Assembly: GCA_014802015.1 (NCBI GenBank)
Contig: JAAVDB010000037.1
Coordinates: forward strand, 1 to 38,872
Origin: Bacteroides sp.
Lineage (GTDB): Bacteria > Bacteroidota > Bacteroidia > Bacteroidales > Muribaculaceae
Length of the DNA stretch: 38,872 nucleotides
Direction of reading: 5' to 3'
Shown here: one piece after another, positions 20,968-27,851 of the stretch
Position numbering within the stretch: position 1 is the stretch's first letter
How the letters are laid out: every line of letters begins with the position of its first letter
Translations under genes and position numbers: made by a program
The notes under the pieces: generated by a model
The model's input: the letters and a program-made list of their open reading frames with translations, nothing else
Database searches by the model: none
What the model was told of the DNA's origin: nothing

Positions 20968-22428
20968 TTATTTCGACAATGATTCGTGCATCGACTGTGC
21001 GGCACGGCGTCCGTCACCCATGGCGAGAATCACGGTGGCACCTCCGCGCACGATGTCGCCGCCGGCATAGAGGTCGGCGAGTGACGACTGCATGGTATTG
21101 TCATTGACCACGATAGTGCCTCGACGCGACACTTCGAGCTGACTGATAGCGTTGGGTATAAGAGGATTGGGTGACACGCCGACACTCACGATGACCAGAT
21201 CGACAGGTATCTCGTCGATGGCTCCGGGGATGGGCTGAGGCGAGCGGCGTCCCGACTCATCGGGTTCGCCAAGCTCCATGCGCTGCACCTTCATGGCACG
21301 TACGCGGCCATGCTCGTCGGCGAGATATTCGATGGGGTTGCTGAGGGTCATAAAGATTACACCCTCCTCCTTGGCATGCTCGACCTCTTCGAGTCGGGCG
21401 GGCATCTCAGCCTCGCTGCGGCGATAGACGATCATAGCCTCGTCCGCACCCTGACGTCGTGCCGTGCGCACGGAGTCCATAGCGGTGTTACCGCCACCGA
21501 TCACGGCCACACGGTGACCCTTGAGCACCGGTGTGTCCTCGCCGGGACGTCCTGCACCCATCAGGTTGATGCGTGTGAGATATTCGTTGCTCGACATCAC
21601 ACCGATGTAATTCTCACCGGGTATGCCCATGAACCTCGGCAGACCTGCACCCGAGGCTACGAAGATGCCTTTATATCCGAGGGCATGCAGATCGTCGTAG
21701 GAGAGGGTCTTGCCGACCACGCAATCCTTGACAAACTTCACACCGAGAGCACGCAGACCGTCAATCTCGGCCTCGACCACACTGTTGGGCAGACGGAACT
21801 CGGGAATGCCGTATTTAAGCACACCGCCTATCTCATGAAGAGCCTCGTAGACGGTCACGTCATAGCCCTTCTTGATCATATCGCCTGCAAACGATAGTCC
21901 TGCGGGGCCGGATCCGACCACGGCCACCTTGATGCCGTTGCTTGCGGGACGCACCACCTCGGCAGGATGCTCGGCATTCTCCATGCGTTCGAAATCAGCC
22001 GCGAAACGTTCGAGATTACCGATGGCAACGGGGGCCTTCTTCATCTTGTTATAGATACATTTCGACTCGCACTGCTTCTCCTGCGGGCACACACGTCCGC
22101 ACACGGCGGGGAGTGCGCTGGTCATCTTGAGCACACGTGCGGCCTCAAGAAATTGGCCTCGCTCGATGTTTTTGACAAATCCCGGGATGTGTATCGACAC
22201 AGGACATCCCTGCATACACTGCGGGTCGGGACAGTCGAGACAGCGCGACGCCTCAAGTACGGCCTGCTCGGCCGAGAGTCCCTGATTGACCTCCTCATTG
22301 CAGGTGACACGATAGTCAGCCGGCAACATGGGCATTACCACACGGGGAATGGATGTGCGCTCCTTGGCGCTCTTTTCACTGCGTAGAGCCACACGCCAGG
22401 CGGCCTCACGATTTATATCCTGATTCAT
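20968..22428 (-). CDS. gltA: NfnL-type large subunit (GltA-like NADPH/ferredoxin oxidoreductase)
   Basis: 486 residues. The N-terminal domain has eight cysteines in the pattern of two [4Fe-4S] clusters: Cys63, 66, 71, 75 and Cys110, 114, 120, 124. An FAD-binding GxGxxG follows at 172-177 (GSGPAG) and an NADPH-type Rossmann motif near VAVIGGGNTAMDS. Such proteins are often annotated as glutamate synthase small subunit. No GltB large subunit is here; instead the start overlaps the stop of an NfnS-like partner by ATGA. This pairing is that of NADH-dependent reduced ferredoxin:NADP oxidoreductase, which bifurcates electrons. Bifurcation is known for characterised Nfn enzymes and only inferred here. 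Confidence 0.9.
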   Translation of the reverse strand: MNQDINREAAWRVALRSEKSAKERTSIPRVVMPMLPADYRVTCNEEVNQGLSAEQAVLEASRCLDCPDPQCMQGCPVSIHIPGFVKNIERGQFLEAARVLKMTSALPAVCGRVCPQEKQCESKCIYNKMKKAPVAIGNLERFAADFERMENAEHPAEVVRPASNGIKVAVVGSGPAGLSFAGDMIKKGYDVTVYEALHEIGGVLKYGIPEFRLPNSVVEAEIDGLRALGVKFVKDCVVGKTLSYDDLHALGYKGIFVASGAGLPRFMGIPGENYIGVMSSNEYLTRINLMGAGRPGEDTPVLKGHRVAVIGGGNTAMDSVRTARRQGADEAMIVYRRSEAEMPARLEEVEHAKEEGVIFMTLSNPIEYLADEHGRVRAMKVQRMELGEPDESGRRSPQPIPGAIDEIPVDLVIVSVGVSPNPLIPNAISQLEVSRRGTIVVNDNTMQSSLADLYAGGDIVRGGATVILAMGDGRRAAQSMHESLSK

Positions 22429-23225
22429 TTGTGCTGTGTCTCAAAGTTATAACTCTTCATTCGCATCATCATCTCGTCAAAATCGACCTTGTGCGCGTCA
22501 AATTCCGGCCCGTCGATGCAGACAAACTTGGTCTTGCCGTCGACGGTGACGCGACAGGCGCCGCACATGCCTGTGCCGTCAATCATAATTGTGTTGAGCG
22601 AGCACATCGTGGGCACATCATATTTCTTGGTGGTGAGAGCGACGAATTTCATCATTATAGCGGGGCCGATAGCCACGACGAGATCGACCTGTTCACGCTG
22701 TATCACATCCTCGACACCTGCCGTGACGAGACCTTTACGTCCGGCCGAACCGTCATCGGTCATGATTATCACCTCGTCACTGTAACGCGCCACCTCGTCC
22801 TGAAGAATGATGAGGTCGGCATTACGCGCGGCAAGAATCGACACGACGCGGTTGCCGGCCTCCTTCATGGCCTTGATGATGGGGAGCAGCGGGGCCACAC
22901 CTACACCACCGCCACAGCACACTACCGTGCCGACATTGGCGATGTGAGTGGCCTGACCGAGGGGGCCTACTATATCAGTGAACGAGTCACCCGGCTCAAG
23001 GGCACATATCTTGGCGGTGGACACACCTACCTCCTGAACCACGAGTGTGATGGTGCCGCGCTCGATGTCTGCATCAGCAATTGTGAGGGGTATACGCTCG
23101 CCTCCCTCGCCAACACGTACAATGACGAAATGACCCGGACGGCGCGCAAGAGCTATCATGGGAGCGTCGACCACGAGTTTGACCACGTGTTCCGAAAAGT
23201 GCTCCTTGGAGATAATCTTATTCAT
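22425..23225 (-). CDS. NfnS-type small subunit (sulfide dehydrogenase/dihydroorotate dehydrogenase B electron-transfer-like)
   Basis: 266 residues from the ATG at 23223-23225. An upstream in-frame start at 23282 would add 19 residues not typical of the family and would place the start upstream of the -7 element. Residues 1-95 form the FAD-binding barrel with RIPLTIAD, and 97-200 form the NAD-binding domain with VVCCGGGVGVAPLLP. The C-terminus has Asp216, Cys221, Cys224 and Cys236, fitting the unusual Asp plus three Cys [2Fe-2S] site of NfnS-type proteins. It overlaps nfnL by ATGA, so the two subunits are translationally coupled. It transfers electrons between NADH and the large subunit in the cytoplasm. 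Confidence 0.9.
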   Translation of the reverse strand: MNKIISKEHFSEHVVKLVVDAPMIALARRPGHFVIVRVGEGGERIPLTIADADIERGTITLVVQEVGVSTAKICALEPGDSFTDIVGPLGQATHIANVGTVVCCGGGVGVAPLLPIIKAMKEAGNRVVSILAARNADLIILQDEVARYSDEVIIMTDDGSAGRKGLVTAGVEDVIQREQVDLVVAIGPAIMMKFVALTTKKYDVPTMCSLNTIMIDGTGMCGACRVTVDGKTKFVCIDGPEFDAHKVDFDEMMMRMKSYNFETQHK

Positions 23226-23268
23226 AAGTAACTCTTTATGCGAAAATGATTGATTTTTTATGATTTCA

Positions 23269-23370: not shown

Positions 23371-23406
23371 AGCGTCCCGGCCATCGGGCGGGATGGTCGG
23401 GACGCT
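23371..23406 (-). terminator. Hairpin downstream of the displaced asnS 3' end
   Basis: A 15-bp stem (AGCGTCCCGGCCATC with GATGGTCGGGACGCT, one G-U) with a 6-nt loop, 27 bp past the TGA that ends the asnS fragment at 23434. It is most simply the original asnS terminator left behind when the gene's end was displaced. Confidence 0.55.
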
Positions 23407-23433
23407 TGAAATGTATCTGTCGTGCAAATCCGA

Positions 23434-23521
23434 TCAGAACTCGGCTTTGCCGGGGGTGCGGGGGAAGGGGATGACGTCGCGGATGTTGGTCATACCTGTC
23501 ACGAAGAGCACAAGACGCTCG
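23434..23521 (-). pseudogene. asnS: Displaced 3' fragment of asnS
   Basis: Bases 23436-23521 match the last 86 bp of intact asnS (24956-25041) at 84 positions. Both differences fall on third codon positions and are silent (Val GTC/GTG, Leu CTC/CTT). The fragment still encodes the motif-3 tail ending [16 protein letters not shown] and is followed in frame by its own TGA. It has no start and no upstream gene, so it is a remnant. Silent-only differences mean it came from a functional asnS, either the earlier resident 3' end or one carried by an incoming element. Confidence 0.85.
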
Positions 23522-23535
23522 TCCTTAGGAATCTT

Positions 23536-23856
23536 TCAATTACAAACTGGGTTTGAAACAGTAAGATTATAAATGACATAGTTAGCAACCTTTACTCTGC
23601 CAGAGGTTCCATTCGTAATTTTCACCTTCACAGTTTCATATTTCGAAGATTCCGGATGCGATGTAAATCCAACTATAACAGATGAATTATAGAACTTCCC
23701 ATAACCATCGCAAACGACATAATTGCCATCTGATTCAGCTACTACATAGGAAACGCCATCATTTCCATTGCATTGAGCCGTAAATCGTTTTCCGGCTGCA
23801 AATGCTACTGCACAAACGATTGTAACAAACAGAATTGAAAATAAAATTTTTTTCAT
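23536..23856 (-). CDS. Small exported protein of unknown function
   Basis: 106 residues with a clear signal peptide (MKKILFSILFVTIVCAVAFA, cleavage near residue 20-21). The mature part is beta-rich and polar (GVSYVVAESDGNYVVCDGYG) with three cysteines at about 29, 49 and 105, so a disulfide is possible. I do not recognise the family. It is AT-rich and lies against the displaced asnS fragment in the island. No partner or terminator is evident downstream. Confidence 0.6.
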   Translation of the reverse strand: MKKILFSILFVTIVCAVAFAAGKRFTAQCNGNDGVSYVVAESDGNYVVCDGYGKFYNSSVIVGFTSHPESSKYETVKVKITNGTSGRVKVANYVIYNLTVSNPVCN

Positions 23857-23955
23857 AATAATAAAAATTTATTTTGGTCATTTGCTCCAGTTGACCGTTA
23901 TTATAATTAGTTAGAAATGAGGAGCATTTTTAAATTTCCCGAATTTATTCATTTC

Positions 23956-24153
23956 TTATTTGTTTCTTGTAACAAATATATCAAAGTTTCCTTTCCAAGG
24001 ATCGGACCAATCTTGAACATGTATACTAACCCGACATGCGCCCAACTGCCTAATCCATCTTTTACTCTCGGCTTCGCTATTGTCACCTCTTCTCTTTGTA
24101 TTTTTATATTCCATTTCTGGATTCTGACCATAAAATTCGTAGAATAGGCACAT
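23956..24153 (-). CDS. Short ORF, possibly the end of a broken gene
   Basis: 65 residues ending RVSIHVQDWSDPWKGNFDIFVTRNK-stop, which reads like genuine protein (Trp, Asp and aromatic content, sensible codons). An overlapping frame (23949-24167) looks random by comparison. The N-terminus MCLFYEFYGQNPEMEYK has no signal peptide, and an in-frame TAG lies two codons upstream. It may be the surviving C-terminal part of a longer gene in the AT-rich island. Function unknown. Confidence 0.35.
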   Translation of the reverse strand: MCLFYEFYGQNPEMEYKNTKRRGDNSEAESKRWIRQLGACRVSIHVQDWSDPWKGNFDIFVTRNK

Positions 24154-24244
24154 GCGATTCTAAACAACTCCCAAGTAATCAGCGGTATTATTGATTGTTA
24201 ACAAGTGTATAGTCTTTTTAAATATAAACCTCATCAAGCTCTAA

Positions 24245-24529
24245 TCAGGTAACATAATCATTATCAGGCATATTCGCAATCCAGTCAAATCCTTCTTTAT
24301 ACCTAAACTCCATGTGTCTTGACTTTGCACTTTGTTTAACTATTACAATATCTGCATCATTTTTCCCTCTATACCATATATCTATCCAATGAAAACGACC
24401 TTCCAACATTATAAATTGGAATGTATTAATAAATTTTGGTGTCGTATTGTCAACATCATTCCACCCAAAACTTTTGTTTCCAGTTGATATAAAGCTGATA
24501 ATTAAGAGTAATAATATTTTGTAGTTCAT
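24245..24529 (-). CDS. Small exported protein of unknown function
   Basis: 94 residues from the ATG at 24527-24529. This start gives a clean signal peptide (MNYKILLLLIISFISTGNKS), whereas the farther start at 24598 adds a second hydrophobic segment. The mature part includes FHWIDIWYRGKNDADIVIV and a charged tail. Not recognised. It lies in the AT-rich island and its low GC sets it apart from flanking housekeeping genes. Confidence 0.45.
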   Translation of the reverse strand: MNYKILLLLIISFISTGNKSFGWNDVDNTTPKFINTFQFIMLEGRFHWIDIWYRGKNDADIVIVKQSAKSRHMEFRYKEGFDWIANMPDNDYVT

Positions 24530-24605
24530 CACAAGAACATCGTTGATCAGCCCTATCAACATAATTGTTATAAAAAATAGAAACGTGGACTGAATCACTC
24601 ACTCT

Positions 24606-24725
24606 ATCGCTGATGGTCGTAGGAAACCTGAAGATGAAGACATGAGAGTAGCAGCCCACGCTAAGCGTGAGAACCGCTTTGATACCCTCTCATCTTCAAG
24701 AAAATTTCCTACGTTTTCAGCGATG
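24606..24725. repeat. Imperfect inverted repeat (structured RNA or miniature element candidate)
   Basis: The left arm 24606-24637 and right arm about 24692-24725 pair in three blocks: ATCGCTG, CGTAGGAAA and TGAAGATGA with their complements. A GAGAG/CTCTC pairing lies inside and a small inner hairpin CACGCT-A-AGCGTG sits at 24657-24669. It fills much of the gene-free stretch 24530-24953. It could be a folded RNA or a MITE-like repeat. The plus-strand ORF that crosses it (24642-24848) looks non-coding. Confidence 0.55.
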
Positions 24726-24869
24726 AAAGATAGCAAAACGCTCCTATTAATTCTGAATAAATTACATTCCTCTGAATGGTGTCACAAAATTAAGTATAAT
24801 TTTCAAAAATTCATTCTTTCTTACATCTTTTTTATTAAAAATAAATGAGAATACCAAACACTATATTAC

Positions 24870-24901
24870 GAAAATAGGACAAGCCTTTGCAAGCCTGTCC
24901 T
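24870..24901 (-). terminator. asnS: Terminator of asnS
   Basis: On the minus strand, a 10-bp stem (GGACAGGCTT with AGGCTTGTCC, two G-U) capped by a GCAA tetraloop and followed by TATTTTCG. It lies 53 bp after the asnS stop and belongs to the island side of the junction. Confidence 0.8.
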
Positions 24902-24953
24902 AATTATCTTAAACGTCTTAATGTTCCTAATCGTTCTATGCAGGTGTTACCTC

Positions 24954-26345
24954 TTAGAACTCGGCTTTGCCGGGGGTGCGGGGGAAGGGGATGACGTCGC
25001 GGATGTTGGTCATACCTGTGACGAAGAGCACGAGACGCTCGAATCCGAGACCGAAGCCCGAGTGGGGTACGGTGCCGAAACGACGTGTGTCGAGATACCA
25101 CCACATGTCCTTCATGGGGATGTCAAGTTCCTCGATGCGCTGCAGGAGCTTGTCATAGTTCTCCTCACGCTCCGAGCCTCCGATAATCTCACCAATATTG
25201 GGGAAGAGCACGTCCATGGCACGGACAGTCCTGCCGTCCTCATTCTGCTTCATATAGAATGCCTTGATCTCCTTGGGATAGTCGGTAAGAATCACGGGCT
25301 TCTTGAAGTGTTCCTCGACGAGATAACGTTCATGCTCGCTCTGAAGGTCTGTGCCCCAATGTACGGGGAACTCGAATTTGCGACCTGATTCCTCGAGAAT
25401 CTTGACACCCTCGGTGTAAGTGAGGCGCACGAAGTCGTTGTCGACCACAAAGCGGAGACGATCCTCAAGAGCCTTGTCGAAACGCTCGGCGAGCGCACGG
25501 ATATCATCGAGATTATGCTCAAGTGCGTAGTTGATGCAATACTTCACGAACTCCTCGGCGAGGTCCATATTGTCAGAGATGTCATAGAATGCCATCTCAG
25601 GCTCGATCATCCAGAACTCTGAGAGGTGACGGGGGGTATTGGAGTTCTCGGCACGGAATGTGGGACCGAAGGTGTAGATCTGACCGAGAGCCGTGGCACC
25701 GAGCTCGCCTTCGAGCTGGCCGGACACGGTGAGTGCGGTAGGCTTGGCATAGAAGTCCTTGGAGTAATCTACCTTACCCTCTTCATCCTTGGGGAGATTG
25801 TTAAGGTCGAGCGTGGTGACCTGGAACATCGCTCCGGCTCCCTCGCAGTCACTGGCCGTGATGAGGGGTGTATGGAAATAATAGAATCCTCGTTCGTTGA
25901 AGAACTTGTGGATGGCAAAGGCAAGTGAGCTGCGGATGCGAAGCACTGATCCGAAGAAGTTGGTGCGGGGACGCAGGTGGGCTATCTCACGCAGAAATTC
26001 GAGCGAGTGACCTTTTTTCTGCAGGGGATATGATGCGGGATCAGCTGTGCCGTAGAGTTCGAGGCTGTCGGCCTGAATCTCGCATGACTGACCTTTGCCC
26101 ATCGACTCGACAAGCTTACCGACGACACGTACACTCGAACCTGTAGTGACAGGCTTGAGCTGCTCGTCGTCAAAGCGGGCCATATCGAGTACGACCTGGA
26201 TATTATTGACCGATGAGCCGTCGTTGAGCTGAATGAACTGAACGTGCTTGTTGCCGCGGCGGGTGCGTACCCAGCCTTTGGCCTCGACTTCGGTGCCTAT
26301 GAGTGACGGATCAGAGAGAAGATCCTTGACTGTGGTTTTCTTCAT
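24954..26345 (-). CDS. asnS: Asparaginyl-tRNA synthetase
   Basis: 463 residues, normal length. The N-terminal OB-fold anticodon-binding domain (about 15-110, [20 protein letters not shown]) is followed by a class II catalytic domain with motif 2 ([21 protein letters not shown]) and motif 3 ([16 protein letters not shown] near the C-terminus). The SEFWMIEPE and [13 protein letters not shown] signatures point to AsnRS rather than AspRS. It charges tRNA-Asn with asparagine in the cytoplasm. It starts 18 bp after the rluB-like stop, so they are probably co-transcribed. Its last 86 bp are repeated at 23436-23521. Confidence 0.97.
24956..25041. repeat. Direct repeat copy 2: 3' end of intact asnS
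   Basis: This segment recurs at 23436-23521 in the same orientation with 84 of 86 identical bases. The identity stops abruptly on both sides: the stop codon is TAA here and TGA in the other copy, and downstream sequences differ completely. It is a candidate attachment site for the AT-rich island. Confidence 0.85.
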
Positions 26346-26363
26346 AATATATGAATGATGTTT

Positions 26364-27851
26364 TTATTCAAAAGAACCCATCTTGAGGTAGTTGACCTCG
26401 TCCTGGGTGAGATAGCGCCAGCGTCCGCGGGGCAGATTCTTCTTGGTGAGACCTGCGAAGTAAACGCGGTCGAGCTTGGTGACATGATAACCGAGGTGCT
26501 CGAAGATGCGGCGCACGATGCGGTTGCGTCCCGAGTGAATCTCGATACCGGCCTGATTGCGGTCAGTCTCGGTGGCGTATGAGATAGCGTCGGCATGGAT
26601 GGGTCCGTCCTCAAGTTCGATGCCGTCGGCTATGCGCTGCATGTCATCCTCGGCGATGTCGTGGTCGGTCCATACGTGATAGATCTTTTTCTTGACAAAC
26701 TTGGGGTGTGTGAGCTTGGATGCGAGGTCACCGTCATTTGTGAGCAGAAGCACACCGGTGGTGTTGCGGTCGAGACGACCTACGGGATAGATGCGCTCCT
26801 CACATGCACCCTTGACAAGATCCATAACTGTGAGACGTCCGTTGGGATCGTCGCTTGTGGTCACGCAGTCCTTGGGCTTGTTGAGCAGGATATAGCACTT
26901 CTTCTCAAGCGTAACGACCTTGCCGTCATACTCGACTACATCGCTGTGATTGATCTTGGTGCCGAGCTCGGTTACTACCTCTCCGTTGACCTTGATCAGG
27001 CCCTTGAGGATGTATTCGTCAGCCTCACGACGTGAGCAGAGGCCGGCATTGGCCATAAACTTATTGAGACGGAGCTGTTCGTTAGGATCGGGAATAGTTG
27101 CCTCGTACTCGATGCGTTTGGGACGCGGAGTGAAGCTGCGACCTCCCTGAGGCATGCCGTACTGATTCTGACGGGGACCCTTGTTCTGATAGCCTCCCTG
27201 CTGGCGGTTGTTGTTGTAACCACCCTGCTGACGGGGCTGATAACCTCCCTGCTGACGATTGTTGTTGTAACCGCCCTGCTGACGGGGCTGATAGCCGCCC
27301 TGACGGTTGTTGTTATAGTTGTTGCGAGGCTGGTAACCGCCCTGACGGTTATTGTTGTAGTTGTTGCGGGGCTGGTAACCACCCTGACGGTTGTTGTTGT
27401 AGTTGTTGCGGGGCTGATAACCTCCGGCTACGGGTGTAGCATTTTCTGACTGTGTCGACTCGCTGTTCTCAGCGCCATCCACGGGATTGCCCTCGGTCTG
27501 AGGCACGTGGGGACGGGGCTGGTATCCACCCTGATTGCCGTATCGATTGTTCTGATAGCCACCCTGATTGCCATAACGGTTGTTCTGATAGCCACCGTGA
27601 TTGTTGCCGTAACGGTTGTTCTGATAACCGCCCTGACGATTATTGTTGTAGGGGCGCGGCTGATAGGGACGCTGCGGACGATCACCGTATGACTGCGAGC
27701 CATACGAGGGACGCTGCTGTCCTTCGGTGGAATTTTCAGATGCAGATGAGAAGTCGCCTGACACATTCTCGCGAGCTCCGTCATTGGAGTCTACCGAGTA
27801 AGGGCGCATACTGATACGAGGTCTTTTACCTTTCTTTTCGTTGCTGTCCAT
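26364..27851 (-). CDS. rluB: RluB-like rRNA pseudouridine synthase with long low-complexity N-terminal extension
   Basis: 495 residues. The C-terminal half is a standard RsuA/RluB enzyme: an S4 RNA-binding domain at about 258-305 (RLNKFMANAGLCSRREADEYI) and a catalytic domain with Asp361 in GRLDRNTTGVLLLTNDGDL. It makes pseudouridine in 23S rRNA. The first 240 residues are disordered: about 62-111 carries GGYQNNRYGN repeats, 143-186 has three GGYQPRNNYNNNRQ repeats, and 187-220 has GGYQPRQQGGYNNNRQQ twice. Such Gly/Tyr/Arg/Asn/Gln tails can bind RNA or condense; some Bacteroidetes RluB proteins have related extensions. A promoter lies about 130 bp upstream. Confidence 0.93.
   Translation of the reverse strand: MDSNEKKGKRPRISMRPYSVDSNDGARENVSGDFSSASENSTEGQQRPSYGSQSYGDRPQRPYQPRPYNNNRQGGYQNNRYGNNHGGYQNNRYGNQGGYQNNRYGNQGGYQPRPHVPQTEGNPVDGAENSESTQSENATPVAGGYQPRNNYNNNRQGGYQPRNNYNNNRQGGYQPRNNYNNNRQGGYQPRQQGGYNNNRQQGGYQPRQQGGYNNNRQQGGYQNKGPRQNQYGMPQGGRSFTPRPKRIEYEATIPDPNEQLRLNKFMANAGLCSRREADEYILKGLIKVNGEVVTELGTKINHSDVVEYDGKVVTLEKKCYILLNKPKDCVTTSDDPNGRLTVMDLVKGACEERIYPVGRLDRNTTGVLLLTNDGDLASKLTHPKFVKKKIYHVWTDHDIAEDDMQRIADGIELEDGPIHADAISYATETDRNQAGIEIHSGRNRIVRRIFEHLGYHVTKLDRVYFAGLTKKNLPRGRWRYLTQDEVNYLKMGSFE
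27186..27662. repeat. Tandem coding repeats in the rluB-like N-terminal extension
   Basis: On the minus strand, units encoding GGYQNNRYGN, GGYQPRNNYNNNRQ and GGYQPRQQGGYNNNRQQ recur two to three times each at nearly identical DNA sequence. High DNA identity between units makes slippage and length variation likely. These are inside the reading frame and are not CRISPR. Confidence 0.85.

Follow-up and report, generated by a model that had tools for sequence, protein, structure and literature searches.

Duplicated 3' end of asnS and the enclosed island

We analyzed a 38,872-nucleotide stretch of a Bacteroides sp. genome of the family Muribaculaceae (assembly GCA_014802015.1, contig JAAVDB010000037.1), hereafter the window, which carries an island inserted behind asnS, the gene for asparagine--tRNA ligase. 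The gene is intact (24954..26345, minus strand; 463 amino acids [aa]; stop codon TAA) and was identified with NCBIfam TIGR00457 (616 bits against a cutoff of 342.6), NF003037, and Pfam PF00152. An original prediction, made from the sequence alone, held that the last 86 bp of asnS occur twice in the same direction, and a repeat search recovered both copies, at 23436-23521 and 24956-25041, with 84 of 86 positions (98%) identical. They are spaced 1,520 bp apart. The near copy (minus strand) lies within the working gene and may be partly donor DNA; the far copy (minus strand), downstream of asnS, is a remnant that appears to be the native 3' end, with a TGA stop codon at 23434-23436. Their unbroken identical core measures 64 bp (23436-23499), and the probability of such a core arising by chance within 38.9 kb is about 10^-30 by a simple equal-base estimate. 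Both mismatches are silent, as predicted (CTC/CTT for Leu and GTC/GTG for Val), and the stop codons, TAA in the near copy and TGA in the far one, form a third difference.

The DNA between the copies, 1,434 bp at 23522..24955 (no strand assigned), had been described as about 1.4 kb of AT-rich sequence with unrelated open reading frames (ORFs) and no recombinase. Its GC content is 31 to 36% in 300-bp windows wholly inside the island, compared with mostly 50 to 60% in the coding flanks. Two of its ORFs lie on the minus strand: ORF94 (24245..24529; 94 aa), whose hydrophobic N terminus looks by eye like a secretion signal, and ORF106 (23536..23856; 106 aa), with an N terminus that by eye resembles a signal peptide. 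ORF94 was an orphan in the searches made, with no match besides itself in 297 family genomes and none in IMG/VR. ORF106 was nearly so, with one weak match besides itself (genome G166, 36%) in the 297 genomes and none in a GTDB scan. No Pfam match was obtained at E ≤ 0.001 for the island ORFs of 106, 117, and 72 aa, and at E ≤ 1 those of 106 and 117 aa matched only below the family cutoffs. Pfam searches of the ORFs recognized no recombinase gene within the island.

The two copies are followed by different hairpins, as expected of gene ends from two genomes. A terminator-like hairpin with a 12-bp stem and a T run (24875..24902, minus strand) stands directly after the near copy, one of 2 such sites in the stretch against 1.3 expected in shuffled sequence, and a hairpin with 15-bp arms (23371..23406, no strand assigned) stands behind the far one. 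Beyond the second hairpin lies a gene for an nfnS-like FAD/NAD-binding subunit (22425..23231, minus strand; Pfam PF10418 and PF00175, NCBIfam NF004862), the native downstream neighbor.

Empty sites in related genomes

Among the 40 asnS loci first fetched, nfnS stood behind asnS in four (genomes G014, G012, G009, and G007). In the first three, all from related species, one asnS tail adjoins nfnS, with 232, 136, and 205 bp, respectively, between the stop codon and the nfnS match. These are the empty sites that the original prediction had proposed to look for, and they agree with its claim that asnS and nfnS were adjacent before the insertion. The fourth genome has a 3.7-kb gap between the genes and no tail repeat, which shows that this spot accepts other insertions too; the gap (locus L046, 1588-5260) holds a long gene that by eye is leucine-rich-repeat-like and BspA-like. 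The sequence TGATCG after the last Phe codon of the far copy is common to the window and G007. Because of this match and the conserved nfnS neighbor, the far copy is taken as native and the island with the near gene end as the newcomer. Judged by these sequence comparisons, the island is an insertion, the end of asnS was restored, and asnS and nfnS were neighbors beforehand.

Survey of asnS loci

We surveyed 120 asnS loci of the family, 106 of them with at least 1.5 kb and 65 with at least 10 kb of downstream sequence. Two clear tail duplications were found, in G027 and G418. That of G418 was rejected as a scaffolding artifact, an NN gap separating both tails. The G027 duplication, located close to the end of a contig, is a 46- to 47-bp repeat around an insert of about 0.93 kb that contains a 253-aa ORF. 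We excluded from the count weak similarities to the asnS tail in several other loci (mostly 11 to 33 bp; 89 bp at 68.5% in G249).

Longer islands with a tyrosine recombinase had also been anticipated at asnS. A regular-expression search detected recombinase-like ORFs in 6 of the 120 loci, with start points between 2 and 10 kb downstream, and four of the six nearly share a motif that we take to be XerC/D-like. A recombinase-like ORF accompanied by an asnS tail repeat of more than 20 bp occurred in 0 of 120 loci in this pattern search, which can miss divergent enzymes. Four virus contigs matched one degenerate asnS-tail pattern; all carry full-length distant asnS genes (56 to 57% identical), and no lone asnS attachment site was seen with this one pattern. 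Behind asnS of G028, an imperfect copy pair of another kind was observed: a palindromic repeat of 140 bp (95.7% identical) that stands immediately after the gene and again about 10 kb away (locus L074, 1612-1751 and 11486-11625, numbered in the orientation of asnS, which is the reverse of the locus), possibly a miniature mobile repeat.

Duplicated tails at other genes

Similar scars, each a duplicated gene tail with an island between the copies, were found behind other genes. The present set, a collection and not a systematic survey, holds nine scars at six genes, including those of the window and G027, with repeats of 46 to 182 bp. In G028 the repeat (182 bp, 96.7%) covers the end of a gene that from its sequence is presumably hpf and extends through the terminator; in G117 it covers the 3' end of an unnamed gene of 304 aa (156 bp, 95.5%). 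The secA scar of G309 (51 bp, 100%) ends at the stop codon, and further scars lie at icd in G271 (124 bp, 94%) and hutU in G400 (113 bp, 87%). A search with the icd tail in 81 genomes, 64 of which matched, added G283 (116 bp, 97.4%) and G088 (62 bp, 95%). We named secA, icd, hutU, and asnS after their NCBIfam matches; icd was read in G283, and the G271 tail was assigned by similarity.

Codon differences between the two tails are all synonymous in the window and in G271 (three in each, the window count including the stop codon), which suggests, from sequence, that each tail ended a functional gene before the two came together. The tails of G283, unlike these, show no synonymous and two nonsynonymous differences, and those of G309 show none at all. 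At icd, the terminator type behind the near copy in G271 and G283 also follows the single icd match of G410, G259, and G327. Of the 14 other genomes read, the best of the 64 matching ones, 10 have the type behind the far copy and G187 has another type. The near and far icd ends thus resemble two natural alleles that have become joined. At secA, empty sites with contiguous tail and flank are present in G358, G423, G299, G342, G376, G406, and others, and in several relatives tail and flank lie about 1 to 9 kb apart. No secA-tail repeat was found in 11 fetched loci of the latter kind, so insertions behind secA can also occur without leaving a scar.

The most telling pair is that of G028 and G117, where one segment, 98.3% identical over 2,037 bp, occupies two unrelated genes. 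It comprises the hpf tail, a structured RNA leader (R1, described below), ORF141, ORF89, and the 3' end of the following gene. In G028 the segment is continuous from hpf and stops abruptly at the second hpf tail, at a joint where 5 bp (AGCCG) are shared. In G117 the continuous side is the one that leads into the following gene, and the segment's opposite end breaks off within an additional copy of that gene's 3' end, again with 5 bp shared (GCGAT). Homology at one end with 5-bp microhomology at the other was observed in these two genomes only. For the window, we infer one-sided continuity because asnS is intact at one border of the island and the asnS tail sets in abruptly at the opposite border. 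Since one segment reached two unrelated targets with opposite ends homologous, a site-specific recombinase is not expected; the same segment at two targets fits recombination that needs homology at one end only.

The R1 leader

R1 is a predicted structured RNA leader of about 170 nucleotides (nt) in the window island (24576..24745, minus strand). A match to TAnnTTTG, TAATTTTG (24785..24792, minus strand), lies 47 nt upstream; we take this motif to be the Bacteroidota -7 box. It occurs within 70 nt upstream of 83 of 85 R1 copies, mostly at 45 to 53 nt, a count made without a shuffled control. When the whole island was used as a DNA query, 203 of 397 family genomes matched, and among the matches listed all nonself ones fell on R1.

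The element folds into a long hairpin (z score of the DNA fold, -6). In an alignment of 100 copies (A2), 32 of 48 pairs show changes on both sides, 96.2% of cells are paired, and the covariation score is 0.435, compared with 0.186 for shuffled and 0.057 to 0.099 for slid alignments; A2 was fitted to the R1 model and so leans towards it. An unfitted alignment of 29 copies (A1) gave both-side changes in 18 of 48 pairs. Conserved G-U pairs (for example, U-G in 92, G-U in 91, and U-G in 83 of 100 copies) point to R1 acting as an RNA of this strand. Rfam gave no match, even at E ≤ 1, in the region 23400-25100, and no matching published description was found in titles and abstract openings. Passages of PMC8040213 speak of thousands of RNA candidates, which may include R1.

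Downstream of R1, an ATG-initiated ORF of at least 60 aa begins within 150 nt in 60 of 62 copies, at a median distance of 46 nt, compared with 13 of 62 on the divergent side. In the window the distance to the ATG of ORF94 is exactly 46 nt. The genes behind R1 vary widely, and many have starts that by eye resemble those of lipoproteins or signal peptides. Between 1 and 13 matches at E ≤ 0.01 were found in 37 of 61 genomes, the window's included, a few of these being one element on both strands. The window's genome (G000) has one strong copy, that of the island, and three weak ones. Two weak R1-like matches have the same score of 43.8 bits (G000:C5:160463-160675 and C10:81947-82159) and represent perhaps a distinct, longer RNA subfamily or a chance repeat. 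An exact R1 pattern was found, among the matches listed, in Bacteroides xylanisolvens XB1A, Phocaeicola massiliensis, P. coprophilus, Parabacteroides faecalis, and Butyricimonas synergistica; R1-like DNA is also present in two IMG/VR contigs, four plasmid records, and one phage record.

We read R1 as a putative cis-acting leader found across Bacteroidales. Its promoter-like box, conserved fold, and fixed short distance to the start codon resemble those of riboswitch-like and attenuator leaders. It differs from known cis-regulatory leaders in having no Rfam match and in preceding unrelated genes. Being strongly covarying and present in named records such as B. xylanisolvens XB1A, it is a leader for which a ligand or partner can be sought.

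R1 is not needed for the scars and was rejected as their cause: the icd scars of G283 and G088 and the asnS scar of G027 lack it. It is present in six of the nine, five of which were found by looking at R1 loci. Such a role had been suggested by the two R1 copies in the surveyed asnS loci, which both sit in scars but are the same island, and by bracketing repeats. These surround 6 of 58 R1 loci at E ≤ 0.01; three, the window's included, are at least 59 bp and the others 15 to 20 bp. At E ≤ 1e-6, such repeats bracket 7 of 62 further R1 loci and 7 of 214 control centers, some controls being the same repeats. Three of the seven at R1 loci were counted as scars (G309, G271, and G400). Among the rest, the L259 repeat looks like paralogous genes, the L283 repeat resembles a terminator repeat, and neither L294 nor L290 was counted. 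At E ≤ 1e-8, 6 of 82 more R1 loci had bracketing repeats (L326, L368, L335, L316, L349, and L350), and none was counted: L326 is on the same contig as L290, the L335 repeat is only 34 bp, and that of L368 spans 183 bp over the middle of a 103-aa ORF. The repeats at L069, L079, L147, L165, and similar loci were also judged not to be gene-tail scars. At L290 (G025), repeats of 308, 240, and 158 bp (95 to 98%) lie around an R1 copy and include gene starts, a more complex rearrangement.

Origin of the island

We consider it somewhat more probable than all other accounts together that one-sided homologous recombination with a foreign piece of chromosome brought in the island. The donor fragment would have come from a close relative and carried an asnS 3' end, its terminator, and an accessory unit of a promoter, the R1 leader, and small secreted-protein-like genes. 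It would have paired with the resident asnS through the common tail, and its other end, lacking homology, would have been joined illegitimately, straight into the chromosome; alternatively, the fragment may first have closed into a circle that a single crossover then integrated. Either way the order would be that seen today: a functional asnS that ends in the donor's bases, the island, the remnant of the resident tail, the native hairpin, and nfnS. What is inferred here is the donor, how its DNA got in, and whether joining was direct or by way of a circle.

Several observations weigh against this account. No donor genome with the order asnS, R1, ORF94 was found. R1 occurs in only 2 of 100 asnS loci searched of the 120, neither directly behind asnS. 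Every one of the nine scars lies at a 3' end, which is what an integrase model predicts. A random process should leave 5' ends too, a possible reason for their absence being that a 5' remnant with its promoter would yield a truncated protein. The repeats of G271 and G283 have one icd codon as their common start. Six scars have a readable last ORF and cargo that runs in the direction of the host gene; in these, the far tail begins 1 (G271), 10 (G027), 13 (G309), 14 (window, after ORF106), 34 (G283), and 70 bp (G088) after the last cargo stop codon. Islands thus end behind stop codons more neatly than random breaks would give, which lowers support for one-sided recombination and raises it for an integrase and for a cassette. 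Together with the restriction to 3' ends and the common icd start, these ends are compatible with a trans-acting recombinase or with a cassette mechanism.

The original prediction had likened the locus to integration at tRNA genes. The insertion, the restored end, and the former adjacency of asnS and nfnS stood; the likeness to site-specific integration was weakened. In its present form this alternative is a small nonautonomous integrative element, mobilized in trans or decayed, for which a tyrosine recombinase used the asnS 3' end as attachment site. Integrative and mobilizable elements at protein genes restore the gene end and are flanked by direct repeats, as here. Passages of PMC5704250 place such elements at the 3' ends of guaA, rplL, rpmG, rpsI, and trmE, so insertion at a protein-gene 3' end is a shared feature. 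The direct repeat, the restored gene end, the empty sites, the exclusive use of 3' ends, and the icd codon common to G271 and G283 also favor this alternative, as does the finding that four of the six readable islands end no more than 14 bp behind the last stop codon. The elements listed in those passages have tyrosine integrases, whereas no integrase was recognized here and the boundaries vary: the repeat starts of the window and G027 are about 42 bp apart at asnS, and that of G088 is shifted by 45 bp from G271 and G283 at icd, so the attachment core is not constant. Repeat lengths differ as well. One segment entered two unrelated genes, virus contigs yielded no lone tail in the one pattern used, and a recombinase-like ORF and a tail repeat over 20 bp never coincided in the pattern search of the 120 loci. 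We regard an integrase mechanism at asnS as less likely than one-sided recombination, and unlikely in absolute terms. A little more doubtful still is a third possibility, a new mechanism in which R1-led and similar units of 1 to 4 kb move between Bacteroidales genomes as a distinct class of recombinase-free cassettes that settle behind host 3' ends, copy 46 to 182 bp each time, and end near the last stop codon (1 to 14 bp in four of six).

An origin by stepwise rearrangement within a single genome, such as an internal duplication that copied the asnS tail along, seems improbable. The 98% identity of the tails does imply a very close source, and the sliding identity of the window's asnS to relatives showed no clear mosaic, a comparison that was not informative. 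The island, however, is unlike its flanks in composition and includes the single strong R1 copy of its genome, and ORF94 and ORF106 have no other match in G000 and one weak match (that in G166) in 296 further family genomes. Least credible of all is an assembly artifact. The window's genome looks like a draft metagenome bin (45 contigs, 86.95% complete, 5.51% contaminated), the look-alike in G418 proved to contain a scaffold gap, and the G027 case is near a contig end. Yet the window island contains no N, its tail copies differ and have unique, sensible flanks, and tail duplications recur in eight other genomes.

Comparison with known systems

A close published parallel is homology-facilitated illegitimate recombination (HFIR), for which passages of PMC3240628 describe homology at one gene end, a nonhomologous joint at the other, a partial duplication, and no dedicated recombinase. 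In that study of Escherichia coli conjugation, duplications were seen in 56 of 60 clones tested by PCR, and the authors explained them by a single crossover of a shortened, recircularized plasmid. The duplications there measured 109 to 950 bp, compared with 46 to 182 bp in the Bacteroidales scars; three of four HFIR joints lacked microhomology, whereas both testable joints here share 5 bp; and the laboratory case involved a selected plasmid, whereas the present ones are natural accessory islands.

A second likeness is to the stepwise displacement of type VI secretion effector-immunity modules in Vibrio cholerae, where, in passages of PMC5361080, the module is anchored by homology on one side and the old 3' part is left behind. 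Those are toxin-immunity modules at one kind of locus, and here unrelated islands lie behind different genes. Small variable segments of bacterial genomes, 10 to 18% of which are flanked by direct repeats according to passages of PMC2884548, are likewise short accessory DNA between direct repeats. Between 66 and 94% of those repeats are under 30 bp, whereas the present ones measure 46 to 182 bp and consist of a gene tail. In a limited literature search we found no report of asnS as an integration site and none on recombination, transfer, or islands in Muribaculaceae.

Duplicated gene tails are readable scars that orient the gain of small islands without a mobile-element gene. If one-sided recombination is correct, the family takes up foreign chromosomal pieces by this route and bears scars in roughly 1 to 5% of genomes per gene, an estimate based on 1 of 120 asnS loci plus the window and on 3 of 64 matching genomes for icd, the first-found case included. 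Such a route would be missed by island finders that rely on integrases.

Elsewhere in the window, a gene that by eye is pseudouridine-synthase-like (26364-27851, minus strand) has long N-terminal repeats of the NNNRQGGYQPR type, which account for several of the window's repeat families.

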